In this document: positions 84-25,843 of the stretch, in pieces | Layout of the letters: each line of letters opens with the position of its first letter | How positions within the stretch are numbered: the stretch's first letter is position 1 | From: an uncultured Porphyromonadaceae bacterium | GTDB lineage: Bacteria; Bacteroidota; Bacteroidia; Bacteroidales; Muribaculaceae | DNA length: 36,282 nt | Direction of reading: 5' to 3' | NCBI GenBank assembly: GCA_947177365.1 | Contig: CAMWUD010000003.1 | Location: 1 to 36,282 of the forward strand | The notes under the pieces: model-generated | What the model saw: only the letters and a program-made list of their open reading frames with translations | Told to the model about the DNA's origin: nothing | Database searches by the model: none | Translations under genes and position numbers: made by a program

Positions 84-91
84 TAAATTTG
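84..91 (+). promoter_or_regulatory. Putative Bacteroidales -7 promoter element (TAAATTTG) for the three-gene PRTase operon
   Basis: Matches TAnnTTTG; GTTG lies at 63-66, 17 nt upstream, slightly short for a -33 element. First CDS starts at 168. Confidence 0.4.
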
Positions 92-98
92 TAACAAT

Positions 99-111
99 GC
101 GCAAATTGCGC
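99..111. promoter_or_regulatory. Inverted repeat GCGCAA-A-TTGCGC just downstream of the putative -7 element (possible operator)
   Basis: Perfect 6-bp arms around a single central base. Confidence 0.35.
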
Positions 112-167: not shown

Positions 168-1712
168 ATGGAAAACAAGATATTTAGGGATTGGTATGTA
201 GACCTAATCACTTATCTGCGGATGCATTTAGACAACAATCGACAGGTTGTTGTCATAGCCTTATCGCGAAAAATGCCTCGCTTGCTTTCATTTATAAAAG
301 ATACAGTACTTGGTAAGGAAGAGGTAGACACCCTTGACAAATATCTCCATCACCCAAATTGCTATTATACAACAGAGCACGGAATTCCCTTTGTATTCCG
401 CGACGAACGGTTGAATGAGGCTGAGGTACTTGTTCTTGACGACATGATTATAACCGGAGACACGTTGAACAAAGTGTCTGATGAAATCCTCGCGCTCACA
501 GGAAGGAAGCCAAAGTACCTCGGACTTTACATGCTTCAGACAGCAACAGAAGTAGTTTCCCCCGAAAATAATATATCGGAGATTCTGCCTCACAGGAATA
601 CGAATATTGATGAGTTGCGAAAGACTATGCGAACTCTTTCGAGTCACATCGAGAGTACCGGCCTTCCCATTGATATGGAGTTTCCGATACTTCATGTCAG
701 GACAGTATTGAAGAGTTCTGACGTAGTGGAGGATGTATTCGAGCCTATGATTAGATGTCTTCGTACGACAAACCCCGAGGCCCGATACTATCCGCAGCAC
801 GTTGAAGAGAGTACAAAAGATTTCACGCAACTTATAGAAAGCGATATCAACCGTCTGTATAACAACGATTTTGCGAAAATCCGGCTCTTTCTTCACAGAA
901 GCGAGGTAAAGGTTGTCTGTTATGCTCCCAATATCTTGGGCAATAGGCAGGTGATGTCGACTGACCTTTTTGTGACTCAGGCTTATAAACAGTTGTGGCA
1001 TACGATACTAAGCTCTGTGATAAATGATCCGGTGAAAGACCGTTTCGACCATGTAATTACCGAAGAAGACCGGCTCCGTCATCGTCTGAGCAAACGACTC
1101 CATCGGTCGTTGGTTGTGATGGCCAATTATCTCTTCTCGCTTTCGATGATGATACGGGAGAAGAATACATACATAAAGTTACTGACAGATGGAATGTATT
1201 CCGCAGAGCTTAAAGAAGACGATCTCGCACTGCTTCTTGGTCCGGCTTTGGCGTCAAGCTGTATTGCGGCGTTGAATTCCTTCTTTAAAAGCGGAATAGA
1301 AAGTGCCTCTTGCCGTAGGGAAATCAGAATATCGGATATGCTTGTGCCGGACGAAATTCAAGGCGACTATGAATTTCTGAGTACAAAGATGATATTTGAG
1401 GCCAATAATGTAGAAAAGGCCATACGAGGTGTATTCGCGGCTGCCTACAAGGTCTGCTCTGATATGAATAAAAACCGGTATATGCCGGTAGAAGGCAAAC
1501 CTGTGCTTGAATCCTTCGAGTCGTTATATGGTAAACCCGGACGAATGTTCAAGGGAAAAGAAGGAGAAAAAGAAATAAATGCCGTAGTCGACAACCTGAT
1601 AGACCGGGGATATGTGGTGCCGGTTTATGAAGAGGCTGAAGACCGGAACGGTACCCGTTATTGGCGGCGTTACTTCAGGGCAACGCACACCGCCTGTATG
1701 CTTGCGGATTAG
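168..1712 (+). CDS. Phosphoribosyltransferase-like protein with probable C-terminal winged-helix region
   Basis: PRPP-binding-type motif VLVLDDMIITGDT; C-terminal EINAVVDNLIDRGYVVPVYEE..GTRYWRRYFRATH resembles a wHTH with wing. ATG at 168 preferred over TTG at 162. Confidence 0.7.
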   Translation: MENKIFRDWYVDLITYLRMHLDNNRQVVVIALSRKMPRLLSFIKDTVLGKEEVDTLDKYLHHPNCYYTTEHGIPFVFRDERLNEAEVLVLDDMIITGDTLNKVSDEILALTGRKPKYLGLYMLQTATEVVSPENNISEILPHRNTNIDELRKTMRTLSSHIESTGLPIDMEFPILHVRTVLKSSDVVEDVFEPMIRCLRTTNPEARYYPQHVEESTKDFTQLIESDINRLYNNDFAKIRLFLHRSEVKVVCYAPNILGNRQVMSTDLFVTQAYKQLWHTILSSVINDPVKDRFDHVITEEDRLRHRLSKRLHRSLVVMANYLFSLSMMIREKNTYIKLLTDGMYSAELKEDDLALLLGPALASSCIAALNSFFKSGIESASCRREIRISDMLVPDEIQGDYEFLSTKMIFEANNVEKAIRGVFAAAYKVCSDMNKNRYMPVEGKPVLESFESLYGKPGRMFKGKEGEKEINAVVDNLIDRGYVVPVYEEAEDRNGTRYWRRYFRATHTACMLAD

Positions 1713-1724
1713 TCAGCGAAATTT

Positions 1725-1739
1725 GTGGACGCAGTCCAC
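1725..1739 (+). promoter_or_regulatory. Hairpin GTGGAC-GCA-GTCCAC followed by TGGCTTTTT, between PRTase and ATPase genes
   Basis: Perfect 6-bp stem, 3-nt loop, short T-run, 13 nt before the ATG at 1753. Confidence 0.45.
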
Positions 1740-1752
1740 TGGCTTTTTGTAA

Positions 1753-3240
1753 ATGCTACAGACAGTCAAAAATATATTGAAGACAGGTATTTCAGGATTT
1801 CCCGACAATGCCGTGTTCGGCAGTATATTGGATTGTATTGAGGATCTTGGTGAAATACCGTCTGTGGTACAGTTGTTTGTGAAATTGTCGGCATTGCCGA
1901 TGTCTGTGTCTGACGGTGAGCCGGACAAACAGGAATTGGCAGTCGACCATCGAATCAGGCATTTGGCAGTATCATCGTTTAAAGGTTTTTCCGGAGATAA
2001 CTTATACGGCATAAATTGTTGTGACAGTTCCGGCAAGCGAGGAGTGGCCGAGGTTGCGTCAGTGGTATTGCTTGGGTCGAATGGTGTCGGCAAGACGTCG
2101 CTGTACAGCGCCATGGAGATTGGAGCCATGAATCATTCGTATATAGCCGATGTGCATGGTTATGAAGCTCCTGCCAAGCAGGCGGAATACATCCGCAGCG
2201 AATCAGATGCCGGCAGAGAGCCGCAAGTCCTGATTGCATACAACAACGGTCAGATATTTAAGTACCCGGAAAATACAGTGGAACTCTGTCCGAGAGCCTT
2301 CTTCTGCTCGCAGTATGATATACAATATTATGAGAGTCATGGCATGACTGTCGACTATATCATGCAGCAGCTTGGTCGGTTGAAGCTATATCGATTACTT
2401 CTTGTTCTGGTGGATTTGCAGGAAATAATGTTGAAGGCCAACATTGCTGCCAATTTGAGAAAGAGGTTGAAGGAAAGCACGAGTCAAACGGAAAAAATCA
2501 CAATTTCCAGACAGCTTTTTTCCGAAACAACAGATTTGAAGAAACTGCTTGGATTGGGAAAACTTAAAATTGCGAAATACGAGTGGGTGACGGAGAATAT
2601 ACTGAAAGACTTCAAGGAAGTATTGGACCTTGTAAAAAGCGATGTCAACACAGCTTTGGCGAAATTCAGTGATATATCCAGAGACCTCTTTCCTAAGTTA
2701 CTGAATAATTTTCTGAAAGAAGACAACGCGGAGATTATTATCACTGAGGAGGAGCAGACAGTCTTGCCTCTGATAAAAATAGCCGGGAATGACGATGTGG
2801 TAGAGCCAAGGAAATGGTTCAACACATTTAGAATGAAGCTCTTTATTCTCTCTGTCAAGTTTGTGCTTTCGTTTACATCAAAGATTATTGATAAAAACAA
2901 TTATCCGGTAGTGATGGACGATGTTCTTGATTCAAGCGATTTCAGAAACAAATATGAGATAAGACGCTTCTTTAATTCTGTCGTGTCAGGACATGATGAA
3001 TACAATGAGTTGATTCCGATGCCATTGCAGATTATATTCTTTTCACAGGATAAGATTATCGCCACCAATGTATATGAGGGCATAGCTGAATCCACTCGGT
3101 ATATGAGAGTGAAATATTGCCGTCTGTTTCATTACAAGGATGTCGATGACAATAGGCTGAACAAAGATATGGATAAGGTAAGGATGGATCTGCAGACTGA
3201 ATATTACAACCTTGCAGGTCTGATAGAGCGAAGCCGATGA
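1753..3240 (+). CDS. RecF/AAA-type P-loop ATPase
   Basis: Walker A VVLLGSNGVGKTSLYSA; Walker B-like YPVVMDDVLDSSD preceded by the conserved-looking WFNTFRMKLFILSVKFVLSF helix. Confidence 0.75.
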   Translation: MLQTVKNILKTGISGFPDNAVFGSILDCIEDLGEIPSVVQLFVKLSALPMSVSDGEPDKQELAVDHRIRHLAVSSFKGFSGDNLYGINCCDSSGKRGVAEVASVVLLGSNGVGKTSLYSAMEIGAMNHSYIADVHGYEAPAKQAEYIRSESDAGREPQVLIAYNNGQIFKYPENTVELCPRAFFCSQYDIQYYESHGMTVDYIMQQLGRLKLYRLLLVLVDLQEIMLKANIAANLRKRLKESTSQTEKITISRQLFSETTDLKKLLGLGKLKIAKYEWVTENILKDFKEVLDLVKSDVNTALAKFSDISRDLFPKLLNNFLKEDNAEIIITEEEQTVLPLIKIAGNDDVVEPRKWFNTFRMKLFILSVKFVLSFTSKIIDKNNYPVVMDDVLDSSDFRNKYEIRRFFNSVVSGHDEYNELIPMPLQIIFFSQDKIIATNVYEGIAESTRYMRVKYCRLFHYKDVDDNRLNKDMDKVRMDLQTEYYNLAGLIERSR

Positions 3241-4166
3241 GTTTGTCAATTGGACGGAATATACAATATTTACTGTTTGTACTCGCAGGGATTGTGGCAG
3301 GTGCGTTGGGTTGTGTGTTTTTCACAAACGTAGTGCTTAAATCAACAGATTTCACGCCTGTTAAATACCCTCCTGTTCCTATAACATATATTCAGGACAC
3401 AGTAAAGGCTGAAAATGGAGATACCGTTCCGCTGCTTGCAAAAGTTCAGGATGCACGCTACGATACTCTGCATATCCGTATCTGTCAGCTTGAGGCTGCT
3501 AATGCAATTATGGCTAATAGACAGGAAGTTCTTGTAGATGACCATCGACAAGAGACAAACAACTATATCAATAAGATAAATGGCTGGCTTTCGTTATGGA
3601 TACTCATTATAGGCATACTGTGTGTGCTGCTTCCGGTTATAGTCCAGTATATGAATTACAAGACAGAGCATAAAAAGCTGATTGAGCGGATACGGGAGCA
3701 GAACAGACGTCTGCTGGATACCGAGAAGCATATTAGGTCTCTGGATGACAGAATTGAGAAAAGAGAGCGAATGCACAAAGGTCTTTCTCTGATCCAGACC
3801 GGGATAGACAATTCGATTGTAGAATGCGGAACCATATCGCAGTATTCATATCTGAATACATCATGGAAGGCTGCATATGAGTATATAAAAGAAACGACAG
3901 ACGAAATATTTAAAGTCGGCCGTTTTAGCGATGATAAAATCCGGATACTTCAGGAAATGATACTCTATATGAGTGATTATAAGCGGCAGTTGATGCGTAT
4001 AGCTCCACGATATAGAAGACGTAGATTTGAAGAATTCGATGATATACTGTCATTATTGTATCGTCAGCTTGAAACCAGAGATTTCAAGGATATATTGGAT
4101 TTCAAGTCGCGCTATAACAAAGCCGTAGAGGTATTTCAGGGCTTGTTAGGCATATCCTATATGTAG
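3237..4166 (+). CDS. Membrane protein with two predicted TM helices and a coiled coil
   Basis: TM-like YLLFVLAGIVAGALGCVFFTNVV and LWILIIGILCVLLPVIVQYM, then charged coiled coil LIERIREQNRRLLDTEKHIRSLDDRIEKRE; ATGA overlap with upstream gene. Confidence 0.7.
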   Translation: MSLSIGRNIQYLLFVLAGIVAGALGCVFFTNVVLKSTDFTPVKYPPVPITYIQDTVKAENGDTVPLLAKVQDARYDTLHIRICQLEAANAIMANRQEVLVDDHRQETNNYINKINGWLSLWILIIGILCVLLPVIVQYMNYKTEHKKLIERIREQNRRLLDTEKHIRSLDDRIEKRERMHKGLSLIQTGIDNSIVECGTISQYSYLNTSWKAAYEYIKETTDEIFKVGRFSDDKIRILQEMILYMSDYKRQLMRIAPRYRRRRFEEFDDILSLLYRQLETRDFKDILDFKSRYNKAVEVFQGLLGISYM

Positions 4167-4370: not shown

Positions 4371-5609
4371 ATGAAATTTCTTTTCGATTTAGATGGTACA
4401 GTGACCAGGCAGGAGACATTGCCTATAATATCGGGACATTTCGGATGTAACGAGCAGATTGCAGAGTTGACTACCCGTACGGTAGCAGGCAATATCCCTT
4501 TTATTGAAAGCTTTATACGACGGGTGAATATTCTCGGACGGTATTCTGTCAGAGAGACAAACGAACTTCTGTCAGGCGTGTCGCTCTATCCTGCAATTGC
4601 CGAATTTATAGCCGCTCACAAAGAGGATTGCGTTATAGTGACAGGAAATCTGACATGCTGGTGTGAGGGACTGTTCAATAAAATCGGATGTCAATGTTAT
4701 GGCTCTGAAGCCGAAGTTGTGGATGACAAGGTTGTAAAAATCAAAAGCATACTGCGCAAGGAGCAGATTGTAGACCTTTATAAGGCGCTTGGCGAGACAG
4801 TGGTGTTCATTGGCGATGGCAATAATGACCTCGAGGCCATGCGTCATGCCAACATAAGCATTGCCGCCGGTCTGACACACAATCCGGCTCAGAGTCTGAT
4901 GTCCATCTGTGATTACGTAATATACAATGAGAAAGCTCTTGTACGTCAGATGCGTCAGCTATGCGGGGAATATGGCGACAGTAAATCAGTAGTGATAAGT
5001 TGCGCCGGTATCGGTTCGCGTTTGGGACTCGGCCTGACAAAAGCCTTGGTGCAGATTAATGGCAATTCACTTATCTCCTGGCAGCTGAAACTGTTTGAAT
5101 CAGTAGAGGATGTACGTCTGGTCATCGGATTTCAAGGCGGTGAAATTATTGAGGAGGTCCGCAAATACCGCGATGATGTGATATTCTGTTTCAATCACCG
5201 CTATTTCGAAACGAAGACAGGAGCGAGCTATTATCTTGGCGCCAGACATGCCAACCCGGAGACACTTGAATGGGACGGAGACCTGCTGGTTCATCCCGAT
5301 GATGTAAAAATGCTTCTGGATACTCCCGGCGAGTTCATATGTTACGGCGATATCACCTCCGACGACACAGTCTGTGTCCATGTCGATGAGAAAGGCAATG
5401 TGCTCGATTTCTCGCGTGAAGGCGGCGACTATGAATGGACCGGCCCGGCATGTATGGATAAAAAGCATCTGATATATTGTTCGCAGAATGTTTATAATAT
5501 GTTCGAGCCGCTGTGCCCTATGAGAGGTATCAAAGTCCGGGCCTATGATATAGACACCTACAATGATTATGTCAGAGTATCGGAAATAACCAAAGACTGG
5601 ACGATATGA
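4371..5609 (+). CDS. Bifunctional HAD-IB phosphatase / sugar- or phospho-alcohol-type nucleotidyltransferase fusion
   Basis: N-term HAD motifs FDLDGTVT and GDGNNDLEAM; C-term NTP-transferase motif SCAGIGSRLGLGLTKALVQINGNSLISWQL. Confidence 0.8.
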   Translation: MKFLFDLDGTVTRQETLPIISGHFGCNEQIAELTTRTVAGNIPFIESFIRRVNILGRYSVRETNELLSGVSLYPAIAEFIAAHKEDCVIVTGNLTCWCEGLFNKIGCQCYGSEAEVVDDKVVKIKSILRKEQIVDLYKALGETVVFIGDGNNDLEAMRHANISIAAGLTHNPAQSLMSICDYVIYNEKALVRQMRQLCGEYGDSKSVVISCAGIGSRLGLGLTKALVQINGNSLISWQLKLFESVEDVRLVIGFQGGEIIEEVRKYRDDVIFCFNHRYFETKTGASYYLGARHANPETLEWDGDLLVHPDDVKMLLDTPGEFICYGDITSDDTVCVHVDEKGNVLDFSREGGDYEWTGPACMDKKHLIYCSQNVYNMFEPLCPMRGIKVRAYDIDTYNDYVRVSEITKDWTI

Positions 5610-6370
5610 TAGGTGTAATCGGAGCAAATGGAGTTGCCGCTACAAACCGCCTTTGCGAACTGATAGAAGAGCGAGTGGTAAAGTCAGGCGGCTATCGCGA
5701 CTGCCATCATCCCGAGATGCTGATATGGCAGGCCACTCAGGTGCCGAGCCGGAGCATGTATCTTGAGGGACGTGGCGAGAGTTTTATTCCTGAATATACG
5801 CGTATAGGACGTAGAATGAAGGAATGCGGATGCGATGAAATCTGCATGTGTTGCAATACCGCCCATTATTATATTGATGAGTTACAGAAGGAAATCGGAC
5901 TCCCCTTCATAAACCTTATTGCGGAAGTTGCGGAAAAGGCAAAGACTCTTGGTGTAAAAAGAGTGGGTCTGATGTGTAGTGACGGATTGGCAAAAGTAAA
6001 GTTCTATGACAGAGTTTTTGCAGATGTCTGCCCGGAAATTGAAATAGTCTATCCGACAGAAGAATTTCAGACTCTTGTAACCAGAGGAATCTGCAATGCC
6101 AAGAATGTGAAACGGTATACGGAAACCACTGACGAGGAAAGTCCGGTATATTGTTTTACCCGCGCAGTGGAACATCTTTTAGGAAATGGAGCGGACTGTA
6201 TTGTCGCAGGCTGTACGGATATAAATAATGTATTCGGCTGTCCGACCGGAATTCTCAGGGAAATACCATATATTGACAGTCTTGAGGTTCTGGCGGATTG
6301 TATAGTGAACAGAAACGAGAATATGCCTTCTAAATTCAGGATTAATGAAGTTAATGGCATTATACCATAA
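5606..6370 (+). CDS. Aspartate/glutamate racemase family protein
   Basis: MIGVIGANGVAAT N-term; paired active-site Cys contexts MCCNTAHYY and IVAGCTDINN; ATGA overlap with upstream gene. Confidence 0.8.
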   Translation: MIGVIGANGVAATNRLCELIEERVVKSGGYRDCHHPEMLIWQATQVPSRSMYLEGRGESFIPEYTRIGRRMKECGCDEICMCCNTAHYYIDELQKEIGLPFINLIAEVAEKAKTLGVKRVGLMCSDGLAKVKFYDRVFADVCPEIEIVYPTEEFQTLVTRGICNAKNVKRYTETTDEESPVYCFTRAVEHLLGNGADCIVAGCTDINNVFGCPTGILREIPYIDSLEVLADCIVNRNENMPSKFRINEVNGIIP

Positions 6371-7655
6371 GTATACGCCGGAAGCAGTCAAGAGCTATGT
6401 AAGAAAACACCTTGACTATTATCGTTTGGGCATAGGAAAGTTTGAACGTCAGAATAAACAGCTTGCTAAAGTTGTCGGAAAGAAAGACAAAATTACAGTG
6501 CTGTTTATGGCGGCGAATGTTGCCATGTGGCGGTTTCAAGGTCTTTATGAGCTACTTAAAAAGGATACCCGATTCGCTGTATATGTCATCATATCTCCTT
6601 TTACAACATACAGTGCTGAAGCACAGAGAAATGATGTTGAAGGATTAAAGAAGTATTTCAAGGATAACCATATAGAGGCTATAGACGCTACAGACAGTGC
6701 TTTTTCTGTCGAGACATGGCGGAATGAACATGAAGTGGATATATTTTTCCCGGTTCAGCAATATGGAGGAATGGTTGGCAAGGGCCTGAATATAGAAGAC
6801 TTCGCATCCCGTCTTGTATGCATTGTTCCATATAGCTTCACAGTCACAGACAAGGAATGGACGTTCAACAACTACTATTTGAATATTGCGTGGCGGGTAT
6901 ACCATCCCACTCCTTCTCATAAAAAAAGAGCATCACAAAGAGCTGTCAATCATGGAAAGAATGTCAAGGTTGTAGGCGAACCCAATGCCGACAGGTATGC
7001 CTATGCTGCCAGAACGGATCCATGGAAGGTAATAGGGGATGGCAAGAGCCGCAGGAGAATCATATGGGCGCCTCATTTTTCTATAAATGACGACTGCTGG
7101 TTAAAAAACAGGACTTCATTCATAGACCTTGCTGAGTATATGCAGGAAATGTCGGACAGATATAAGGATACAGTCCAGTTTGCATTCAAGCCGCATCCGC
7201 GATTGTTTTCGGAGTTGTGCAGGCACAAGGCCTGGGGTAGCGAGAAGGCAAGGGAATATTACGATTTTTGGAAAAACAGCTATAATACCCAGATTGACGA
7301 CGGAGAGTACATCGACTTGTTTCTTACTTCCGATGCAATGATTCATGACTGTGGTTCATTTACAGCCGAGTATATGTATGTAGGCAAGCCTGTACTGTTT
7401 GTATCGCCTGATTTCGACAGTGTGAGAGCCGAGTGCAATCCTTGTGCGCAAAAATGTATGGATTTGCATTATAGAACCGACAATGCAGACGGAGTGGAAG
7501 ACTTTGTCAGGAAAGTCGTGCTTAATGGAGAGGATTACATGAAACCGAGACGAATCAAATTTTATAATAAAGTCTTGAAAACTCCGGATTCCGGCAGTGT
7601 TGCCGAAAACATATATAATGATATCTTGGATTCATTAGGATTGAAACGCAACTGA
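6345..7655 (+). CDS. CDP-glycerol glycerophosphotransferase family protein
   Basis: VLFMAANVAMWRFQGLYELLKKD..., RIIWAPHFSI, FKPHPRL, DLFLTSDAMIHDCGSFTAEYMYVGKPVLF pattern typical of the Glyphos_transf family. Confidence 0.75.
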   Translation: MKLMALYHKYTPEAVKSYVRKHLDYYRLGIGKFERQNKQLAKVVGKKDKITVLFMAANVAMWRFQGLYELLKKDTRFAVYVIISPFTTYSAEAQRNDVEGLKKYFKDNHIEAIDATDSAFSVETWRNEHEVDIFFPVQQYGGMVGKGLNIEDFASRLVCIVPYSFTVTDKEWTFNNYYLNIAWRVYHPTPSHKKRASQRAVNHGKNVKVVGEPNADRYAYAARTDPWKVIGDGKSRRRIIWAPHFSINDDCWLKNRTSFIDLAEYMQEMSDRYKDTVQFAFKPHPRLFSELCRHKAWGSEKAREYYDFWKNSYNTQIDDGEYIDLFLTSDAMIHDCGSFTAEYMYVGKPVLFVSPDFDSVRAECNPCAQKCMDLHYRTDNADGVEDFVRKVVLNGEDYMKPRRIKFYNKVLKTPDSGSVAENIYNDILDSLGLKRN

Positions 7656-7656
7656 A

Positions 7657-8739
7657 ATGGATATTTTAGTACTTATTTTAGCTGTTGCTTCATTCTGGGG
7701 AATGAAAGTTTCAGTATCAGGTCACAGCGACTATATCAATAAGAACCAGACGGATTCAATAAAAGGTATATTCGCCATTATCATTCTTTTCTCACATATG
7801 CGCGATTATCTACCCTCCCCATCAGAATCAGGTAGTTATGATATGATATATTACGGGATGCTGAATTATTTAGGCCAGCTGATGGTTGTGATGTTCCTGT
7901 TTTATAGCGGGTATGGCATAATGGAGGCGCTTAAACGTGACCTGCGCAGATATAGCGACAATTTTCTTACACACCGATTGCTCAAGGTATGGCTCATGTT
8001 CGCTATTGCAGTGACATTATATATGTTGATGAATCTGCTGCTTCAGCGTGATTATGAAATAAAGACGGTGCTGATGTCATACATAGGGTGGGAGTCCATA
8101 GGTAACAGCAACTGGTTTGTTTTTGATATATTGGTGCTGTATCTCTTTACATATATCTCGCTGAAGATTTCGGCCTATACAGGCCGGAATCTGAAGTCGG
8201 TGGCGTTTATAGTCGCGCTTATGTCGTTGGTATTATGTGGGTTGTTTATCCGCATTGGTAAAGGTTCGTGGTGGTATGATACAGTGCTTGCGTATCCTCT
8301 TGGAATGTATTATTCCCTGTACAGACAGAAAATAGAGCGGATTGTCTCGGGAAATGCATGGTTCATGGCGGTATTGGTAGCAGGCGCGGTATTTGCGCTG
8401 TTCTATCTGCGTGACGTTCTTGTTTTTGCGACGATAGGCTATGAAGGCATAGCCGGTTATATATCTCTTGGCACCTTTTTGCTTACGTCAGGCATATTCG
8501 CACTGCTGCTCGTGCTTCTGACAATGAGGATAAAGATAGATAATCGAATACTTCGTTGGCTCGGAGTCAATGCATTTGCAATTTACATATTACAGCGTAT
8601 TGCCATGATTTCAGCCTCACATATGGGCTGGAACAACAATTCGCTGTATTTTGCAGCCATAGTCATACCGCTGACACTGCTGATTTCAGCCGTGTTTACC
8701 GCTGCGACTGGAAAAATCAATAAGGTTTTATTTCACTGA
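7657..8739 (+). CDS. Acyltransferase-3 family membrane protein
   Basis: Multi-TM; SIKGIFAIIILFSHMRDY N-terminal motif. Confidence 0.75.
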   Translation: MDILVLILAVASFWGMKVSVSGHSDYINKNQTDSIKGIFAIIILFSHMRDYLPSPSESGSYDMIYYGMLNYLGQLMVVMFLFYSGYGIMEALKRDLRRYSDNFLTHRLLKVWLMFAIAVTLYMLMNLLLQRDYEIKTVLMSYIGWESIGNSNWFVFDILVLYLFTYISLKISAYTGRNLKSVAFIVALMSLVLCGLFIRIGKGSWWYDTVLAYPLGMYYSLYRQKIERIVSGNAWFMAVLVAGAVFALFYLRDVLVFATIGYEGIAGYISLGTFLLTSGIFALLLVLLTMRIKIDNRILRWLGVNAFAIYILQRIAMISASHMGWNNNSLYFAAIVIPLTLLISAVFTAATGKINKVLFH

Positions 8740-8741
8740 CA

Positions 8742-10223
8742 ATGTCAACAGAGCTAAAAGACAAGGCTGTCAATGGTGTGGCATGGACAATGGTCGAGCG
8801 CTATTCCGGGCAGATAGTTCAATTCGTCATATCAGTAATTCTTGCCAGAATGCTGACTCCGACGGAATACGGGCTGATAGGGATGCTTGCTATTTTCATA
8901 GGTCTGACAACAGTATTTATCGATGGAGGGTTTTCCAGTGCGCTTGTGCAGCGCAAGGATCGTACGGACGGGGATATTTCCACGGTGTTTTATATCAATG
9001 TGGGCATGGCGGTTATGATGTATCTGTTGCTTTTTGTCACAGCTCCATGGATTGCGGAGTTTTACAATCAGGCGGAACTGACATCAATCGTGCGTATTTA
9101 TTGTCTTGGTCTTGTTATATCGTCACTTACTTCTACGAGTGGCATACTGCTTGTAATAAACCTTGATTTCAAGACAACAACCAAAATATCACTCTCTGCG
9201 GCGGTAATATCAGGTATAGTAGGTATTGTAATGGCTTATACCGGCTGGGGTGTATGGGCCTTGGTAGGCCAGTCATTGGGCAGCTGTGTCATATCTGCCC
9301 TACTTACAGTGTACTTTGTACGCTGGTATCCGAAAAGCGGATTCAGCAAGGAATCGTTCCGTCGGTTGTTTGCATTCAGTTCCAAACTGTTTGTTGCCAC
9401 AATGATATCCACTATATATGATAATATAACGGGCGCAGTAATAGGCAAGCAGTTCAGTGCCGCTTCGCTGGGTTATTACAACAGAGCTTACGGCTTTAAC
9501 TCGCTTGTGAACAGTAATATCACTGGAGTGTTGGGTCGAGTGTCATATCCGCTTCTGAGCCAGATACAGGATCAGGAAGACCGTCTACGCCAGATTTACA
9601 AACGCTACATACAGATGTCGGCCTTTCTCACATTCCCCTTGCTGATGATATTGTGCGGTGTTGCAAAACCATTGGTGCTGTTTCTGCTCACCGACAAGTG
9701 GGGAGATTCGATAATTCTGTTGCAGATTCTATCTTTTTCTTTTTTGTTCGATGGTGTAATCGTATCAAATCTGAATCTGATAAGGGTAAAGGGACGTTCT
9801 GATCTTGTACTTAAACTTGAGATAATAAAGAAAGCAGTAGCATTTACTATTCTGGGGATTGCCATAGCCATGGACAGTATTCTGGCCATATGTATTGGAA
9901 AGGCTATATACAGCGTGTTTTTCGCATTATACCTCAACACATATTATACAAAGAAATTAATGGGCTATGGATTCCGGGACCAATTCTCGGATTTCGGATC
10001 ATATCTGTTTGTCTCATTATGCGTTTTAGCAGTTTGCCTATTGCTGAGTTATTTTATCACAGACTCTTTGACAGCCTTGTTGACAGGTGTGATATTTGGA
10101 CTATGCGCATATGCTCTGGCTTGTAAATATCTGGGGTTGTATGCATACATTGAGTTTGTGAGTATAATCGGCCCGAAATTGCAACGTATCGTTCCGAAGA
10201 AATTCTGTTCCAATAAGAATTAA
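8742..10223 (+). CDS. wzx: Oligosaccharide flippase family protein (Wzx/PST type)
   Basis: KAVNGVAWTMVERYSGQIVQFVISVILARMLTPTEYGLIGM; about 12-14 TM helices. Confidence 0.85.
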   Translation: MSTELKDKAVNGVAWTMVERYSGQIVQFVISVILARMLTPTEYGLIGMLAIFIGLTTVFIDGGFSSALVQRKDRTDGDISTVFYINVGMAVMMYLLLFVTAPWIAEFYNQAELTSIVRIYCLGLVISSLTSTSGILLVINLDFKTTTKISLSAAVISGIVGIVMAYTGWGVWALVGQSLGSCVISALLTVYFVRWYPKSGFSKESFRRLFAFSSKLFVATMISTIYDNITGAVIGKQFSAASLGYYNRAYGFNSLVNSNITGVLGRVSYPLLSQIQDQEDRLRQIYKRYIQMSAFLTFPLLMILCGVAKPLVLFLLTDKWGDSIILLQILSFSFLFDGVIVSNLNLIRVKGRSDLVLKLEIIKKAVAFTILGIAIAMDSILAICIGKAIYSVFFALYLNTYYTKKLMGYGFRDQFSDFGSYLFVSLCVLAVCLLLSYFITDSLTALLTGVIFGLCAYALACKYLGLYAYIEFVSIIGPKLQRIVPKKFCSNKN

Positions 10224-10260
10224 AGTCGGTCAGACTGTAGCTGTTAACACGAAATTCGTC

Positions 10261-11265
10261 ATGCCGTACATCTCAATAGTGATTCCTATTTATAATGTTG
10301 ATCAGTTTATTGGTGATTGCATAAACTCTGTCCTTGGACAGACTTACAAGGATTTTGAGCTGATACTTGTAAACGACGGAAGTACAGACCGGTCACTGGA
10401 GATTTGCCACCAATATGCGGATGTAGATCCGAGAATTGTTGTAATTGACAAGCCTAATAGCGGAGTCGGCAGTACACGCAATATTGGAATAGATGCCTCC
10501 AGAGGGCAGTGGATTACGTTTATCGACAGTGATGACCGTGTGGCGAGTGATTATCTTGAAAGCATGGCAAGAGCCATAAGCGATAATACCGATTTTGTGC
10601 AGTCAGGCATAATATTTTTCGACAACGATAGCGGAAACGAAATCGGGTGTGAAGTTTTGCCGGAAAAGCAGACACTTCACCGCAATATACCTGTCGAGTG
10701 TTTTGAAATGGCCATAATGCCGCTGATAACATCGCCTGTTTCAAAGCTGTACCGACGTGACATATTGAACGTAAATGGCATTCGCTTTGACACAACGCTC
10801 AGCGTGGGTGAAGACCGGGACTTCAATCTTGCTTATATCAATGTGATAAACCGTGCATGTATGATTGCATATGCAGGTTATTATTATCGAAAAGGAATTA
10901 GCGGGAATTTAAGTTCAAACCGTGATTACATTCAATTACTCAACTGGGATATAGATTATTGGAAGAAACTGAAGCGATTCTTCGATGTCAATGACTGCGA
11001 TATTGATACGACTGAGAAGTACCTCGCACACCGACTGTTTAACATCTATAACGACAGATTGGTTCAGTACTCCAATGCCGCTAAGAGACCGATGAGGCAA
11101 CTTATAGAAGCGGTCAAGACTATTGTCGGTCAGAGCGAATACACATGGCTGTGCAAGCATATCAAACAGGTGGAATGCAATCGTTTGCTTGCAAATATAT
11201 ACCTTAGCAAATCACCCATATTAATTGCTGTATATCTAAAAGTTGTCTGTCAAAAAAATGGCTAA
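10261..11265 (+). CDS. Glycosyltransferase family 2
   Basis: ISIVIPIYNVDQFIGDCINSVLGQTYKDFELILVNDGSTDRS; FIDSDD. Confidence 0.9.
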   Translation: MPYISIVIPIYNVDQFIGDCINSVLGQTYKDFELILVNDGSTDRSLEICHQYADVDPRIVVIDKPNSGVGSTRNIGIDASRGQWITFIDSDDRVASDYLESMARAISDNTDFVQSGIIFFDNDSGNEIGCEVLPEKQTLHRNIPVECFEMAIMPLITSPVSKLYRRDILNVNGIRFDTTLSVGEDRDFNLAYINVINRACMIAYAGYYYRKGISGNLSSNRDYIQLLNWDIDYWKKLKRFFDVNDCDIDTTEKYLAHRLFNIYNDRLVQYSNAAKRPMRQLIEAVKTIVGQSEYTWLCKHIKQVECNRLLANIYLSKSPILIAVYLKVVCQKNG

Positions 11266-12274
11266 ACAACGAATTTTGTACATAGACCTGATGAAAGGTC
11301 TGTCAATAACCTGGGTTGTGTGGTTTCATACCATTCATCCGGCATTTGTCGACTATGGTTTCAGGATGCCGCTGTTCTTCCTTGCCTCGGCGATATTCTT
11401 CAAACCGTATCCGCCAAGGGAGTTCATTGAGAAGAAACTCTACCAGATGATTATACCGTTTATGGTTTTCTATCTGCTGTATTATAGCTTTATGATAGTG
11501 TCGTCGGCTTTGGCCGAAGGTTCGTTTGGGGCATTTGATTATTCATGTATCCTTGATGTAATCAGACCCTATAGTGGAAACGGTGGCCCCACGGTTAATC
11601 CGCCGTTATGGTTTATAATGGCACTGCTTAACTTACAGATACTGTTATATCTGAGTGTGAAACTTGTCCGTAACAGGCACATGCTGATGATTCTGGCATT
11701 TGCACTGTCCGTCTTTGCTACATTGTGTTTGTTCGAGACATACACCTACTTCCAGTTAGGCAGGGCTTTGCGCTACTTCTGCTACTATGCGTTTGGCTAT
11801 CTCTATGGGAGAGATATAATAAGGATAATAGAAGGTGGAGGCAGGAAATCGATAAGCCTGTTTACCGTCTGTGTACTGGTTTTTGTCATGGCCTTGGGCT
11901 TTAAGCAGATAATGCACTCGCTCAACAGCCACCATGTGATAGATTATTTCCAGATTACTGCTTTGGTGATACTGCTCATATATCTGTTCAGAGCAGCTCA
12001 GGGCTGGTGGATAGTGAGACCGCTGAAATATTATGGCGCCAATTCATATATTGTGCTTGGAATGAACGAGATGATACTTTCAACATTACTTGTCGGATTT
12101 GTTCATTTGTTCCATCACATGGATATCTGGCTCGGTCTGGTTCACTGGATTCTTACCATGGTGCTTCTGATTCCTGTCATCAAGGTCATGAACCGCTATG
12201 TTCCATGGCTTGTAGGTAAGAAAAACATTTTTGATACGCACTTACGAAGATATAAGATAGCATTTCACAAATGA
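11258..12274 (+). CDS. Acyltransferase-3 family membrane protein
   Basis: MAKQRILYIDLMKGLSITWVVWFHTIHP; multi-TM. ATG at 11258 preferred over TTG at 11243. Confidence 0.8.
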   Translation: MAKQRILYIDLMKGLSITWVVWFHTIHPAFVDYGFRMPLFFLASAIFFKPYPPREFIEKKLYQMIIPFMVFYLLYYSFMIVSSALAEGSFGAFDYSCILDVIRPYSGNGGPTVNPPLWFIMALLNLQILLYLSVKLVRNRHMLMILAFALSVFATLCLFETYTYFQLGRALRYFCYYAFGYLYGRDIIRIIEGGGRKSISLFTVCVLVFVMALGFKQIMHSLNSHHVIDYFQITALVILLIYLFRAAQGWWIVRPLKYYGANSYIVLGMNEMILSTLLVGFVHLFHHMDIWLGLVHWILTMVLLIPVIKVMNRYVPWLVGKKNIFDTHLRRYKIAFHK

Positions 12275-13392
12275 AGCGCAAGCGTGTTCTGTTTTTTATC
12301 GAGTCCTTTTCCGGAGGTGGTGCGGAGCGTGTGCTGCTGACCATTCTGAGAAACCTCGACATGGCGAAATTCGATGTCATAGTGCTTGTGATGAGCGACA
12401 GCGGAGTTTACAGCCGTGATTTTCACAGTCTGGACATACGGATTGTGCCAGTGCTTAGGTCGCGCTCAGCCTTGATGAACAGCCTGAAATACAAACTGCT
12501 GTACAATATGTTGCCGCCTCAGCTGGCGCTCCGGTGGCTTTTGAAGGGGATAAAGGCAGATACATATGTGGCCTTCATCGAAGGATATTGTACGAAGATG
12601 TTCTCGCGACTGCCATCATCCACTCGCAAGATTGCATGGGCCCATATCGACCTTAAGAATTTCCCATGGCCAATAACCAAGGGCATATATGCCGATGCCG
12701 CGGAAGAAAAGCGTGCTTACGAAAAGTTCGATATGTCGGTGGGTGTATCAAACGATGTCGCGGAAGTTCTCAGAAGCGAATATGGCATCAGGGAAGTCGT
12801 TACGATATATAACCCGATTGACGAAGAGCGTATCCGGAGTATGGCCGACGAGCGATGCGATATATCGGTCGACAGGTCGGCATTCAATATTGTCAGTGTC
12901 GGACGTTTGACTGCACAGAAAGGCTATGACAGGCTTATAGACCTGATGCCTTCGGTACTTGCGCGTAATCCGCAGGTGAGACTATATATAGTGGGCGAGG
13001 GGGAGGAGCGTTCCTTGCTTGAAGAGCGGATAGAGCAGCTTAAGCTCAGCGACAATGTGATACTGACCGGATTTCTTCAAAATCCGTATTCGCTCATGAA
13101 GCAGATGGATCTGTTTGTCTGCTCTTCGGTGGCTGAAGGATTCAGTCTTGTCATTGCCGAGGCCATGATAGCCGGTCTGCCTGTCGTGAGCATGGAATGC
13201 GCCGGTCCGAATGAATTGCTTGGACACGGGCAATATGGGCGCTTGTGCGCCACATATGACGAACTGTTCGACTGTCTGGCGACACTGTCACAGAACTCCG
13301 AACAGCTCTCTGCTCTAAAACAGCGGAGCCGGGAGCGCGGCGAGTTTTTCAACACCCGAAAAATAGTGTCCGATATTGAAAACATACTGTAG
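12271..13392 (+). CDS. Glycosyltransferase family 4
   Basis: FFIESFSGGGAERVLLTILRNL; SVGRLTAQKGYDRLI; EGFSLVIAEAMIAGLPVVSMECAGPNELL. Confidence 0.9.
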   Translation: MKRKRVLFFIESFSGGGAERVLLTILRNLDMAKFDVIVLVMSDSGVYSRDFHSLDIRIVPVLRSRSALMNSLKYKLLYNMLPPQLALRWLLKGIKADTYVAFIEGYCTKMFSRLPSSTRKIAWAHIDLKNFPWPITKGIYADAAEEKRAYEKFDMSVGVSNDVAEVLRSEYGIREVVTIYNPIDEERIRSMADERCDISVDRSAFNIVSVGRLTAQKGYDRLIDLMPSVLARNPQVRLYIVGEGEERSLLEERIEQLKLSDNVILTGFLQNPYSLMKQMDLFVCSSVAEGFSLVIAEAMIAGLPVVSMECAGPNELLGHGQYGRLCATYDELFDCLATLSQNSEQLSALKQRSRERGEFFNTRKIVSDIENIL

Positions 13393-13399
13393 TGATGGC

Positions 13400-13717
13400 G
13401 AAACCGGAATGAATCCAATTCTCGACAATCTTCTTGAGATATATAATAAATCGCATATTCTTACTCGTGAGTCCTTTAAGGATAATTGCGTTGCCGATTG
13501 GATTGCTTAGTTTTCTTATGAATTGATAATCTGCAAGTATTATCATGCAATCAAGATTGGCCGACTTTCTAAACAAGAGGAATTTGAAAAAATCAAGGAG
13601 TACATCCGTAATCGTCTTTTAAAAGATGCATATAAGGTTTATAAACCCAAGACAAAGGGAGATGCATTGTAGCATGCCTTGATGAAGGCAAGGTTATATA
13701 AGCTACATTATTTATAA
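13400..13717 (+). pseudogene. Remnant of a GT2 glycosyltransferase C-terminus, paralogous to the intact GT2 at 14773-15759
   Basis: One frame reads ETGMNPILDNLLEIYNKSHILTRESFKDNCVADWIA*FSYELIICKYY...AYKVYKPKTKGDAL*HALMKARLYKLHYL. It aligns without gaps to ETGVNSVPDNLLEIYNRAQQLTRDFFNDHEAADRIAYYSYELIIYKYY...AYEAYIPSTKGERILYQLAKNGWFRTHYL. Stops at 13508 and 13670. Confidence 0.85.
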
Positions 13718-13759
13718 ATTAGAAAAGCTTTGACAGCGAGTGTAAAATACGATATAGCA

Positions 13760-14707
13760 ATGGATATTAAACTGTTATCAAAATATCGGACAGAACTAAT
13801 GGGATTCTCAATGCTTATGGTTATGTTTTTCCATACAATTGGTGGGCTTCCGGTAAAGGCTCTGTATTCCGTTAAGCCATTTATATGTTTTGATTTTGGC
13901 GTTGAGTTTTTTATAGTTCTATCTGCAATTGGTTGCACATATTCGTTAGACCGTAACAAAGATACGATAGGGTTTTTTAAGCGTAGATTTAAGCGGATTA
14001 TTCCGGCATTTGTTGTCGTTGTAGTTCTGGATTTTATCGTAAACGATTTATTGTTAGAGGGAAATACCGATTTGTTTGATTTCTTCAGAAAACTATTCTT
14101 CATGAATTTTTGGAAAGGCGATATCTCATTTTGGTTCATTTTGTATATATTGACCTGCTACATGATTACGCCATTTGTATACAGTCGGGCAGACTCAAAG
14201 ATTCTGTTGGGTTTAATAGGTATTGGAACCATCGCTTTGTTCTTTTATGGATTTAATCATGGTTGTCCTCAAAATGTTTTACTATATAGATTCCCGATTT
14301 ATTTCATTGCATTACTATGGTGTAATTATGCGATGAAGAATAACACCCAATTGAACTTTTTTTATTTGGGTATACTTACCCTTGCTGTCTATGCAATGTT
14401 GATTATGTTTATCAGCTATCCATATAAGTATCTTTTATATATGGCCGCATCAATACCTTGCCTATTATTTATAGCAATGGTGGTAGATAAGTGTAATAGA
14501 CATGTTCAATCGATTTTATCGTTTGTTGGAGGAATCAGTCTGGAGCTATATCTGATTCATGAAAAGTGCCTTGGTATATCTGATATGATTTCTACCAATA
14601 TCGCATTCCGGATAGTTTTTTCATTTACCTTAGGCATACTGTTGTCTTATCTTTTACATTTCTGTTTGACGAGGAGAAATAAACAGTTGAAAATGACCAA
14701 TCGCTAA
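13760..14707 (+). CDS. Acyltransferase-3 family membrane protein (AT-rich gene)
   Basis: KYRTELMGFSMLMVMFFHTIGG; FFIVLSAIGCTYSL; multi-TM. ATG at 13760 preferred over TTG at 13730. Confidence 0.8.
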   Translation: MDIKLLSKYRTELMGFSMLMVMFFHTIGGLPVKALYSVKPFICFDFGVEFFIVLSAIGCTYSLDRNKDTIGFFKRRFKRIIPAFVVVVVLDFIVNDLLLEGNTDLFDFFRKLFFMNFWKGDISFWFILYILTCYMITPFVYSRADSKILLGLIGIGTIALFFYGFNHGCPQNVLLYRFPIYFIALLWCNYAMKNNTQLNFFYLGILTLAVYAMLIMFISYPYKYLLYMAASIPCLLFIAMVVDKCNRHVQSILSFVGGISLELYLIHEKCLGISDMISTNIAFRIVFSFTLGILLSYLLHFCLTRRNKQLKMTNR

Positions 14708-14772
14708 AAGGTATGTACTTTTGAAATAGTGTAATAATGCGTGTAGATTAACACAAAAATATACTTAAACAA

Positions 14773-15759
14773 ATGAGTGAGCTGATTTCGATAATAGTTC
14801 CGGCATACAACTCCATAGCTACCATAGAAGCATGTGTGGATTCGATAAAGGCACAGACCTTTGGCGACTGGGAACTGATACTGGTCGACAACGGGTCGAC
14901 CGACGGCAGTTTTGCTCTGATTGAACGCGTTGCCGCCGCAGACTCGCGTATAAGCGCCCTGCGAGTGCCGCAGAAAGGGGTGTCGAATGCCCGCAATGCC
15001 GGACTTGATATAGCGCGAGGCGAGTATATATGTTTCGTTGACAGTGATGATACGGTAGATAATGATTATCTTGAATGTTTCAATCGCCATAGGCATTCTG
15101 ACCTTGTAGTATGCGGCTACAATGTAGTAAGTGTCGGAAGCGACATGTCGATAAAAAATACCGATAGGCATTGTCCTGAATCATTGGACTGGAAGCCAGG
15201 TGACTCAAAGGCGAAGCTACAGCATGCCTTCAGTAACGGGTATATGCATTTCTGTTGGAACAAGCTGTTCAAAAAGCGTATTATATCAGACAACGGCCTC
15301 AGGTTCAGAAGATTTCCGGTAAACGAGGATTATATATTCGTGATGGAGTATCTAAAACATGCAAAAAGCATTTCAATAATTGATGCGCCGCTTTATCATT
15401 GGATTAGAGTAGATAAAAGAGAAACCGGAGTGAATTCAGTTCCGGATAATCTGCTTGAGATTTATAATAGGGCGCAGCAGCTCACACGAGACTTTTTCAA
15501 TGACCATGAGGCTGCAGATCGTATAGCATATTACTCGTATGAGCTAATTATATACAAGTATTATTACTGCTATCGCAATGCAAGGATAAGCAGAGCGGAA
15601 CTAATGGCAAAGCTTAAAGAATTTCATAAAAATGTGTTTGTCGCACAGGCATATGAAGCCTATATCCCATCAACTAAAGGCGAGCGCATCTTATATCAGC
15701 TGGCTAAAAACGGCTGGTTCCGCACGCATTACTTATTGACCCAAAAGCAGCTAATGTAG
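14773..15759 (+). CDS. Glycosyltransferase family 2
   Basis: ISIIVPAYNSIATIEACVDSIKAQTFGDWELILVDNGSTDGS; FVDSDDTV. Confidence 0.9.
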   Translation: MSELISIIVPAYNSIATIEACVDSIKAQTFGDWELILVDNGSTDGSFALIERVAAADSRISALRVPQKGVSNARNAGLDIARGEYICFVDSDDTVDNDYLECFNRHRHSDLVVCGYNVVSVGSDMSIKNTDRHCPESLDWKPGDSKAKLQHAFSNGYMHFCWNKLFKKRIISDNGLRFRRFPVNEDYIFVMEYLKHAKSISIIDAPLYHWIRVDKRETGVNSVPDNLLEIYNRAQQLTRDFFNDHEAADRIAYYSYELIIYKYYYCYRNARISRAELMAKLKEFHKNVFVAQAYEAYIPSTKGERILYQLAKNGWFRTHYLLTQKQLM

Positions 15760-15763
15760 ATTC

Positions 15764-16669
15764 ATGCTTACAATATTCACACCCACATACAATAGGGCGC
15801 ATACTTTGCCACGCCTTTTCGAGTCGTTGAAGTCGCAGACCTGCAAGGAGTTTGAATGGCTTGTGATAGATGACGGCTCGACAGATCAGACTTCATCTCT
15901 GTTCGACCGATGGCAGGATGAGGCAGTCGGCTTTCAAGTAAATTATCATAAAATCGCCAATGGTGGCAAGAACCGGGCGATAAACAGAGGCTTGCAGCTT
16001 GCCAAAGGTGAATACTTCATGATCCTTGACTCCGACGACATGCTTACTGCCGATGCCGTGGAGTTTATATGCGGGAAAATGCCCGATATTGAAAACAAAC
16101 ACGGTTTTATAGGTATTTCCGGTAAAAAGGCTGATATGGATACAGGCTTGCCTGTGGGGATCATGAATAAGAATTATTCTGAAGAAGGCTATACCGACTG
16201 CAGCAACCTTGAACGTGGTCAGCACAATCTTGGCCGAGACATGGCGGAGGTGTTTATAACCGACCGCCTGCGCAAATATGAGTTCAAAGTCTGGCCCGGG
16301 GAGAAATTCACGCCGGAGGAGGTGGTATGGAACCGTATGGCACTTGACGGGTATAAACTCAGATGGTTCAACAAGATTACATATCTGTGTGAGTATCAGC
16401 AAGGCGGTTTGTCGGACTCTACATGGAGTCTGTTGCGCAAAAATCCTATGGGCTATGCCATGATGTTTGACATCCGCCTTGAAATCTACAAAGACATCCG
16501 GTCAAGGCTCACCAACGCCATCCAGTATGGCTCCTGCTGTTTTCTGGCCGGTGAGCGTGCGATGCTTGCAAAGAGTTATAAGCCTTGGCTTACAATGCTT
16601 TTGGCTCCGGTTTCATTTCTTATATATTTAAGAAGAAATATGCAGCTGAAAAAACGGGCAAGGGGATGA
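15764..16669 (+). CDS. Glycosyltransferase family 2
   Basis: MLTIFTPTYNRAHTLPRLFESLKSQTCKEFEWLVIDDGSTDQT; LDSDDML. Confidence 0.9.
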   Translation: MLTIFTPTYNRAHTLPRLFESLKSQTCKEFEWLVIDDGSTDQTSSLFDRWQDEAVGFQVNYHKIANGGKNRAINRGLQLAKGEYFMILDSDDMLTADAVEFICGKMPDIENKHGFIGISGKKADMDTGLPVGIMNKNYSEEGYTDCSNLERGQHNLGRDMAEVFITDRLRKYEFKVWPGEKFTPEEVVWNRMALDGYKLRWFNKITYLCEYQQGGLSDSTWSLLRKNPMGYAMMFDIRLEIYKDIRSRLTNAIQYGSCCFLAGERAMLAKSYKPWLTMLLAPVSFLIYLRRNMQLKKRARG

Positions 16670-16893
16670 TATTATGCTTTTGATTGAATTGACTGATGCA
16701 ATTCGTCAGTGTGTGGCATTGAAGCAGTCGCACAACCGTACCCTCTCCTGTATAGTTTAGGCGACACAAGGTGTATGCCCATGATTATTAGGAATCCCTA
16801 TGAATGCATTTACTTTGTTTGTTGGCTGCTTTGCGTTGTGTCTTCATAATGATGTACTGAATAAATGATTGTCAAGTATATTGAGAATAAAGA

Positions 16894-17172
16894 ATGAATT
16901 GGATTTCACAAGCTGTGTTTATCGGACACTCTGATAGGCATCCGGAAGGGTCGCCTGTTATTGGAGATAATTGCTGTGCATTTGCAAATTCTATTATAAT
17001 CGGAGGTATAACAATAGGGAACAACGTATTGGCTGCACCAGGAGCATTTGTAAATTATGATGTTCCAGATAATGCTGTTGTGATTGGAAATCCAGGTAAA
17101 ATTATTATGCGGAAGTCTTCACCGACAAGGAAATATATCCAATATGATGCAGACGAAGTCCGAGATTTATAA
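16894..17172 (+). pseudogene. N-terminally truncated hexapeptide-repeat (serine acetyltransferase-like) acetyltransferase
   Basis: Only the C-terminal left-handed beta-helix coils remain: SPVIGDNCCAFANSIIIGGITIGNNVLAAPGAFVNYDVPDNAVVIGNPGKII. No acceptable N-terminal domain was found in 16670-16893. Confidence 0.6.
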
Positions 17173-17192
17173 TGTGTTGCAAGTCTGCTGAC

Positions 17193-18395
17193 ATGAATAA
17201 AACAAGAATAATCATCTTGATGCACTACCTCGAACTCGGTGGTGCAGAAATGGCGTTGATCGGTCTGTTGCACGCGCTTGATCCGAAACGGACTGATGTG
17301 GATCTTTTTGTGTACGACCACCGTGGCCCTCTGATGAAGTTTATTCCCGATTGGGTGAATCTGCTGCCTGAAATCGGTGCATATACAGTAATGGAGCGTC
17401 CGTTGTCCGAAGCAGTAAGACGCAGATACTTCGGTGTCGCTTTCGGGCGTTTGGCGGCAAAACTCAGACATCAGGCATTTGTCAGAAAAAACAAACCGGC
17501 GGAAATATACAGTTCTCTGATTCAGTATGTCGGTGATTTTGTCACTCCATGGTTGCCGGATATAAATCCGGCAGTGGAGTATGACATGTGTATCAGTTTT
17601 CTTGCTCCACACAATATAGCGCGTGATAAAGTGCGTGCTCGTAGGCATGTAGCCTGGATACACACCGATTATTCTACAGTGGATATTGATGTGGTCGATG
17701 AACTTAAGGTATGGAGTGCGTTTGATTCAATTGTGTCAATTTCGCCGCAGGTCACAAACGCTTTTACCGAAAGGTTTCCGTCGTTGTCTTCCCGAATCGT
17801 CGAAATCGAGAATATTTTGCCGACAGACTATATTATCAGCCGTAGTGAGGAATTCAGCGCAGACCGGGAATTGAAAGGCTGTCCCGCTCTCTTGTCCATC
17901 GGTCGGTTTTGTCCGGCCAAGAATTATGACAATCTGCCACTTATAGCCAGACATCTGGTTGACACCTCATGCCCGGAATTGCAGTGGTATATTATCGGCT
18001 CCGGTATAGATGAGCCTCTGATACGGCAGAGAATCAGAGAGGCCGGGATGGAAAAGAATGTAATTCTGTTAGGCTCGAAGGTGAATCCATATCCGTATAT
18101 CAAGGCCTGCGACATTTATGTGCAGCCGTCGCGATTTGAGGGGAAATCCATAACCGTGCGCGAGGCTCAGATGCTTGGCAAGCCTGTGGCTGTGACGGCT
18201 TATCCTACCGCTCCGTCGCAGATTCGGCACGGTGTTGACGGTGTAATAGTGCCCCTTGACAACGAGGGCTGCGCCGCCGGCCTTGCAGAACTGATACGTG
18301 ATGTGGAAAAACAGAAATTATTGGCTGAATATTGCCTCAGTCACGACTTCGGCAATGAGTCTGAGGTTGAGAAGATTTATAAGTTGATTCGATGA
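17193..18395 (+). CDS. Glycosyltransferase family 4
   Basis: IIILMHYLELGGAEMALIGLLHAL; LSIGRFCPAKNYDNL; PSRFEGKSITVREAQMLGKPV. ATG at 17193 preferred (ORF opens at 17172). Confidence 0.9.
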   Translation: MNKTRIIILMHYLELGGAEMALIGLLHALDPKRTDVDLFVYDHRGPLMKFIPDWVNLLPEIGAYTVMERPLSEAVRRRYFGVAFGRLAAKLRHQAFVRKNKPAEIYSSLIQYVGDFVTPWLPDINPAVEYDMCISFLAPHNIARDKVRARRHVAWIHTDYSTVDIDVVDELKVWSAFDSIVSISPQVTNAFTERFPSLSSRIVEIENILPTDYIISRSEEFSADRELKGCPALLSIGRFCPAKNYDNLPLIARHLVDTSCPELQWYIIGSGIDEPLIRQRIREAGMEKNVILLGSKVNPYPYIKACDIYVQPSRFEGKSITVREAQMLGKPVAVTAYPTAPSQIRHGVDGVIVPLDNEGCAAGLAELIRDVEKQKLLAEYCLSHDFGNESEVEKIYKLIR

Positions 18396-19420: not shown

Positions 19421-19441
19421 AGAATTATAAAGAACTGAACC

Positions 19442-20536: not shown

Positions 20537-20567
20537 TGAGTTAAAGGTGCTGGTAAATGATAACAAG

Positions 20568-21308: not shown

Positions 21309-21327
21309 GGCATAATATCTCAGACCT

Positions 21328-22814: not shown

Positions 22815-22858
22815 GCTGCAAAGTTAACTATCAATTATTTAATGAATTGACGGTTGTT

Positions 22859-24076: not shown

Positions 24077-24088
24077 AAAGTTGAAATT

Positions 24089-25840: not shown

Positions 25841-25843
25841 ATA

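Follow-up and report, generated by a model that had tools for sequence, protein, structure and literature searches.

The described systems closest to the locus analyzed here are Lamassu/ABC-3C, in which LmuB, an SMC-like protein, probably acts as the sensor and the enzymatic LmuA as the effector (PMC10586767), and the retrons and DprA-PRTase systems, in which phosphoribosyltransferases (PRTases) are probable effectors with a mode of action described as unknown (PMC9122126). We analyzed a 36,282-nucleotide (nt) stretch from an uncultured Porphyromonadaceae bacterium (GTDB family Muribaculaceae; contig CAMWUD010000003.1 of assembly GCA_947177365.1), hereafter the window, which is an entire contig (G000:C3) of a source genome of 2.3 Mb and 82% completeness. 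At positions 168-4166, three genes on the (+) strand encode a predicted PRTase-fold protein (gene 1), a RecF/SMC-type ATPase (gene 2), and a helical protein with two transmembrane (TM) segments (gene 3). We interpret this module as a mobile three-component conflict system, most likely anti-phage or anti-plasmid, with a build like that of Lamassu/ABC-3C and tied to the inner membrane, and we put the probability of this reading at about 0.58. The module has no name in the versions of Pfam, NCBIfam, and PADLOC that we used.

The three-gene operon described in an initial annotation of this DNA is present as reported, with a 40-nt gap from gene 1 to gene 2 and an ATGA overlap of genes 2 and 3 (gene 2 stop TGA at 3238-3240, gene 3 start ATG at 3237). 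When a gene 1 profile was run against 399 same-family genomes, nine PRTase loci were recovered in 8 of them (about 2%), a frequency typical of mobile cargo. The ATPase gene follows the PRTase gene at every locus with an intact gene 1 (8/8), and the TM gene stands third at all seven loci whose contig continues (the window, G140, G152, G062, G177, G1061, and G1019). The initial annotation had named a failure of the three homologs to co-occur in other genomes as grounds for giving up its proposal, and no such failure was seen. Genes 1 and 2 are separated by about 11 to 210 nt, and the distance from gene 2 to gene 3 ranges from -95 to +31 nt. Inside this one taxonomic family the homologs are just 20-40% identical or thereabouts, with gene order, motifs, and tight spacing retained. 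Since relatives with the same order and the same motifs exist in seven other genomes, the three frames are real genes. Across seven loci, the three proteins have correlated distance matrices (Mantel r 0.65, 0.77, and 0.57; exact permutation p 0.014, 0.0002, and 0.017), which fits inheritance of the three genes together as a unit. The module moves between gut-type Bacteroidales genomes as one cassette.

The genome from which the window derives holds a second PRTase copy, 41% identical, on contig C26 (L003:1-2107), where the ATPase gene is cut off by the contig end. In G220 (L012:1538-3472), the reading frame continues from the N-terminal part of the PRTase into the TM2/coiled-coil part of gene 3, and the ATPase gene is missing. 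We considered this joining as evidence of a link between the PRTase and gene 3 and rejected it because the joined frame lacks TM1 and the C-terminal end of the PRTase, and the ATPase is absent as well; it is probably a relic left by an in-frame deletion, or else an assembly error. Degenerate peptide pattern scans of genome contigs found no relatives. Two IMG/VR matches, which by reading were a RecF-like protein of a phage and a helicase-loader-like ATPase, were set aside as chance ATPase matches; the remaining IMG/VR, plasmid, and phage searches for relatives of the module were empty.

Gene 1 carries an SRK loop (residues 33-35), a TE..PF motif (69-75), a loop of the type that binds phosphoribosyl pyrophosphate (PRPP), and an LPIDxEFP motif (166-173), followed by a long helical region and a conserved C-terminal block at about residues 470-503. 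Residues R34, T69, E70, P74, D92, D234, K237, and R239 are invariant across nine sequences. The PRPP-type motif had been recognized in the initial annotation, and it conforms to the pattern of type I PRTases, [DN]-D-x(3)-[TSH]-G-x-[TS] after a hydrophobic strand; among the nine aligned homologs the second D is kept in all and G97 in eight. Several homologs have sub-threshold matches to Pfam Pribosyltran, and the gene 1 profile matched purine PRTases among solved structures around the PRPP loop only (best 1vdm, E 7.6e-4). PRTase matches elsewhere in the order were frames of about 240 amino acids (aa) that aligned at the PRPP loop only, and these were taken as ordinary PRTases.

The C-terminal block follows the pattern WIDxxIDxG-VVPxY-W-R-F and is a possible docking or winged-helix domain. 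A winged-helix-like tail had been claimed for this protein; such a tail is suggested by the conserved block, for which unreliable AlphaFold models built from the single window sequence (pLDDT 36 and 41) draw helix-strand-strand. Pfam scans of the gene 1 homologs found no known family of ABC-3C C-terminal docking domains (CTDs).

Gene 2 is an ATP-binding cassette (ABC)-type ATPase of the RecF/SMC/Rad50 group, with a Walker A GSNGVGKT at 108, a signature-like NTFRMKL at 357, and a Walker B/D-loop VVMDDVLDSSD at 386. These motifs are kept among same-family homologs (Walker A, NTFRxKL, and DDVFDSSDF). The window protein has a short arm, and a zinc hook (CPxCG-like) is absent from it and from the same-family ATPases. 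Rad50, SMC3, and PtuA were matched marginally when the gene 2 profile was compared with solved structures, and the ATPase of G177 matches the PADLOC LmuB profile at 2.6e-13. The earlier assignment as RecF/OLD-like needs to be narrowed: the protein is RecF/SMC-type and resembles LmuB and Rad50 rather than OLD, and the module ATPases gave no TOPRIM match. Weak matches in G482, G440, and G564 are other ATPases in different contexts and were set aside.

Gene 3 is predicted to have a periplasmic loop between TM1 (residues 12-30) and TM2 (118-136) and a cytoplasmic helical/coiled-coil domain. The two-TM plan anticipated for this third protein is common to all 8 homologs examined. RQETNNYINK (104-113) stands directly before TM2, and the corresponding pattern RQE[ST]NNxI[NDE]K is found there in 6 of 7 same-family members; a proline at the end of TM2 is present in all members compared. 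No ABC-3C middle component (MC) family of Pfam matched gene 3 or its homologs. All three window proteins stay below the curated cut-offs of Pfam and NCBIfam, and their PADLOC matches are marginal. No housekeeping role was found for any of them, in agreement with the initial annotation.

Searches across the order and the phylum recovered two distant orthologous ATPase-TM pairs, in G432 (ATPase 4e-55, TM protein 1.5e-11) and in G871 (7e-89 and 1e-21). Both ATPases are about 800 aa long and carry a Rad50-type CPxC hook in mid-arm (CPLC in G432, CPFC in G871), and ATPases of the window type look like shortened relatives of these proteins that lack the hook. The G871 ATPase matches LmuB at 1.3e-13 over residues 108-767 of 798 aa and profile positions 23-606 of 611, so that the LmuB profile spans nearly the whole ATPase. 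A gene 1 homolog was found in neither genome, with a profile run without a positive genome; a near-identical profile recovers the window's own copy. In G432 (L080:118-10254), the pair comes directly after genes for a radical-SAM/B12 protein, an NMT1-type ABC transporter, and two products that match nothing in Pfam, none of them an obvious effector. In G871, a same-strand gene of 408 aa located 166 nt upstream of the ATPase gene matches PADLOC PDC-S54 (2.6e-145), and its product carries GKTDI...VFVAECKFW, which by reading resembles a PD-(D/E)XK site. Two pairs of AbiE-like genes are located downstream. Since the pair occurs without the PRTase and has another gene upstream in G871, the ATPase and TM protein are the core of the module and the PRTase is one occupant of an upstream slot, which can apparently be filled by different genes.

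The module resembles Lamassu/ABC-3C in having, as is usual there, three genes, an SMC/Rad50-like ATPase with short arms (and a hook in the longer relatives found here), an effector with N-terminal enzyme-like and C-terminal parts, and an apparently variable upstream partner. It differs in its third component, a two-TM protein encoded last rather than the small middle component of Lamassu, and in its PRTase, a domain that PMC10586767 does not list as an effector; in the literature searched, we found no paper with both "Lamassu" and "phosphoribosyltransferase." The arms of window-type ATPases are shorter and hookless, whereas a zinc hook is found in many, not all, Lamassu members, and the module Walker B ends in DD in contrast to LmuB, for which an E-to-Q form has been described. 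Genes 1 and 2 have no gene between them, so an LmuC/MC-like middle component is absent, as it is from some Lamassu systems too. The module is related to Lamassu/ABC-3C but, by the criteria examined, is not a member, since the middle component, the hook of the window-type ATPase, and the docking-domain family are all missing.

PRTase-CE (PF24390; found in retron type III loci, among others), which the initial annotation had put forward as a precedent, is similar to gene 1 in the PRTase fold predicted for the latter, with a PRPP loop, in its presence in conflict loci, and in its possible winged-helix-like tail. Gene 1 did not turn out to be a plain member of this family. One of the nine homologs, that of G062, matched at 25.2 bits, below the cut-off of 27, the other eight gave no match, and the profile-profile comparison of PRTase-CE with gene 1 reached a probability of 2.9%. 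Classic members in the phylum adjoin reverse transcriptases, NADAR-like genes, and other partners, and never this ATPase-TM pair; after examination, their loci were ruled out as direct relatives. No reverse transcriptase was recognized in the open frames read around our loci, where msr/msd were not searched. DprA-PRTase likewise pairs a PRTase with a putative DNA-binding sensor, and abortive infection has been proposed for it (PMC9122126), but it consists of two genes, with a DprA sensor and neither an ABC ATPase nor a membrane protein; no DprA-like gene was recognized at our loci. The PtuA ATPases of Septu (PtuAB) and retron I-A give a weak match in the Walker A region, but the HNH partner gene is absent from the module, and gene order and partners differ. 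OLD/Gabija features are also lacking, with no TOPRIM in the ATPase and no UvrD helicase partner in the module. A plain member of a described family, whether PRTase-CE/retron type III-like, DprA-PRTase, Lamassu, Septu, or OLD/Gabija, could account for the sub-threshold PRTase-CE match and for the matches of the ATPases to LmuB and PtuA. Set against these differences and against the missing CTD and MC families in genes 1 and 3, we regard that explanation as quite improbable.

The module occurs at scattered and partly mobile locations. The G1061 operon lies on a conjugative element with a type IV secretion system coupling protein, the G062 operon is near an integrase-type arm-binding gene, and the C26 copy has TonB-type surroundings. 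Defense-type neighbors, in support of the initial annotation, are present in some relatives: besides the PDC-S54 match and the AbiE genes of G871, a complete Gabija pair (GajA 4.5e-237, GajB 1e-211) lies about 380 nt from the G177 operon (L013:1354-5368), as a separate neighbor between the operon and a polysaccharide locus.

The accessory polysaccharide locus that was said to come after the module in the window is indeed there, on the same strand, and the module also borders on or falls within such loci in G140 (EpsG 65 nt downstream) and G1019. The G220 copy is located behind a NusG-domain (UpxY-like) gene. With the nearby locus in G177, these contexts favor the main rival to a conflict system, a regulator of surface polysaccharide in which the membrane protein would sense the envelope, the ATPase would relay the signal, and a PRPP-responsive PRTase-fold protein would tune the expression of the adjoining exopolysaccharide locus or its supply of precursors. 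PyrR-type proteins are PRPP-responsive regulators. At least three loci, however (C26, G062, and G1061, the last on the conjugative element), show no polysaccharide genes nearby. A TAnnTTTG sequence is found within 170 nt upstream of gene 1 at 6 of the 9 loci (chance alone would give about 22 in the entire window, counting both strands), and these candidate promoters argue for independent expression of the operon. The ATPase-TM pair is found elsewhere beside a predicted defense nuclease and AbiE genes, and polysaccharide loci are variable regions that may simply receive cargo. We consider a polysaccharide regulator unlikely.

The distribution bears on another alternative, that the module is a PRPP or nucleotide stress switch without a foe, a membrane-tethered, toxin-like complex that would arrest growth on starvation or DNA damage and would not act against phage. 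A PRTase domain, a RecF/SMC-type ATPase, and a membrane anchor would suit such a damage-sensing growth regulator. Presence in about 2% of same-family genomes, high divergence, and some mobile or defense-associated locations would be uncommon for a physiological regulator, and we see little likelihood in this explanation.

For the conflict system that we favor, we propose by analogy with Lamassu/ABC-3C a division into sensor, tether, and effector. In such a complex, the Rad50/SMC/RecF-type ATPase of gene 2 would be the sensor or switch, and gene 3 would anchor the complex to the inner membrane through its two TM helices and cytoplasmic helical domain. Gene 1 would be the effector, docking to the complex by its C-terminal part and binding PRPP with its N-terminal PRTase domain. 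Foreign DNA ends or structures, or a disturbance of the envelope, may be the trigger, on which the ATPase would change state and release the PRTase activity. The released PRTase would then use up PRPP or act on a base, nucleotide, or nucleic acid by modifying it, leading to a growth stop.

Several observations count against the conflict-system interpretation. The PRPP loop is changed in two homologs, with G97 replaced by S in the C26 copy and D91 by N in the probably broken G220 copy, and the window ATPase matches PADLOC LmuB/PtuA at just E 0.003-0.04 (LmuB 0.04). The third component of Lamassu is described as a small protein, and nothing in that description resembles the two-TM protein (PMC10586767). 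Most loci are without a named defense neighbor, and between 3 and 5 of the 9 adjoin polysaccharide genes, leaving room for another role. Apparent effector swapping is seen in G871 only, with a gap of 166 nt between the candidate nuclease and ATPase genes, and this one case is insufficient to prove swapping because the PDC-S name marks a single-gene candidate.

A more far-reaching version, which we put forward tentatively and hold to be rather doubtful, is that the module belongs to a family, as yet without a name, of SMC/Rad50-type immune complexes tethered to the membrane. This family would be built on a core of the ATPase and the RQE[ST]NN two-TM protein with exchangeable upstream effectors, a PRTase in one Bacteroidales family and a PDC-S54-type nuclease in another lineage, and its PRTase form would kill or arrest cells via PRPP chemistry at the membrane. 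If the conflict reading is true, Lamassu/ABC-3C logic extends to a membrane-anchored complex, a PRTase is placed under SMC-type control, and a gut-bacterial group gains a defense family missed by the database versions used. The compact 4-kb cassette, with its SRK, TE, PRPP loop, Walker, and RQETNN motifs, makes the mode of action of a PRTase effector testable.

Table. Features of the module and its surroundings in the window (positions in nt).
Feature	Position	Strand	Basis
Gene 1, predicted PRTase-fold protein, 514 aa, proposed effector	168..1712	+	Motif alignment of 9 homologs; sub-threshold Pribosyltran
PRPP-binding loop of gene 1, VLVLDDMIITGDT, residues 87-99	426..464	+	Sequence and homolog alignment
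Gene 2, RecF/SMC/Rad50-type ABC ATPase, 495 aa, proposed sensor/switch	1753..3240	+	Motifs; PADLOC LmuB/PtuA marginal, clearer in relatives
Gene 3, two-TM protein, 309 aa, proposed membrane tether	3237..4166	+	Hydrophobic segments; plan common to homologs
TAAATTTG, candidate Bacteroidetes-type -7 element of the operon	84..91	+	TAnnTTTG pattern
GCGCAA-A-TTGCGC inverted repeat 5' of gene 1, possible operator	99..111		Read from sequence
Accessory exopolysaccharide locus (context, outside the module)	4371..29793	+	Downstream of gene 3, same strand

The inverted repeat upstream of gene 1 has no counterpart at the other loci. The polysaccharide locus of the window, whose genes continue to about 29.8 kb, opens at 4371-7655 with a fusion of a HAD phosphatase and a MobA-like nucleoside triphosphate transferase, an Asp/Glu racemase-family protein, and a TagF-like protein, a gene set that suggests an unusual phosphate- or amino-acid-type decoration of the polysaccharide. 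In the polysaccharide locus of G1019, a small cluster adjoining the operon (L069:11040-14846) encodes a STAS-like DUF4325 protein together with TM proteins and may be another conflict or signaling system. Downstream of the polysaccharide locus in the window are biotin genes, assigned by reading their translations, and within this cluster (33046-34437) a BioG-like region is apparently fused to a BioC-like methyltransferase, likewise by reading.

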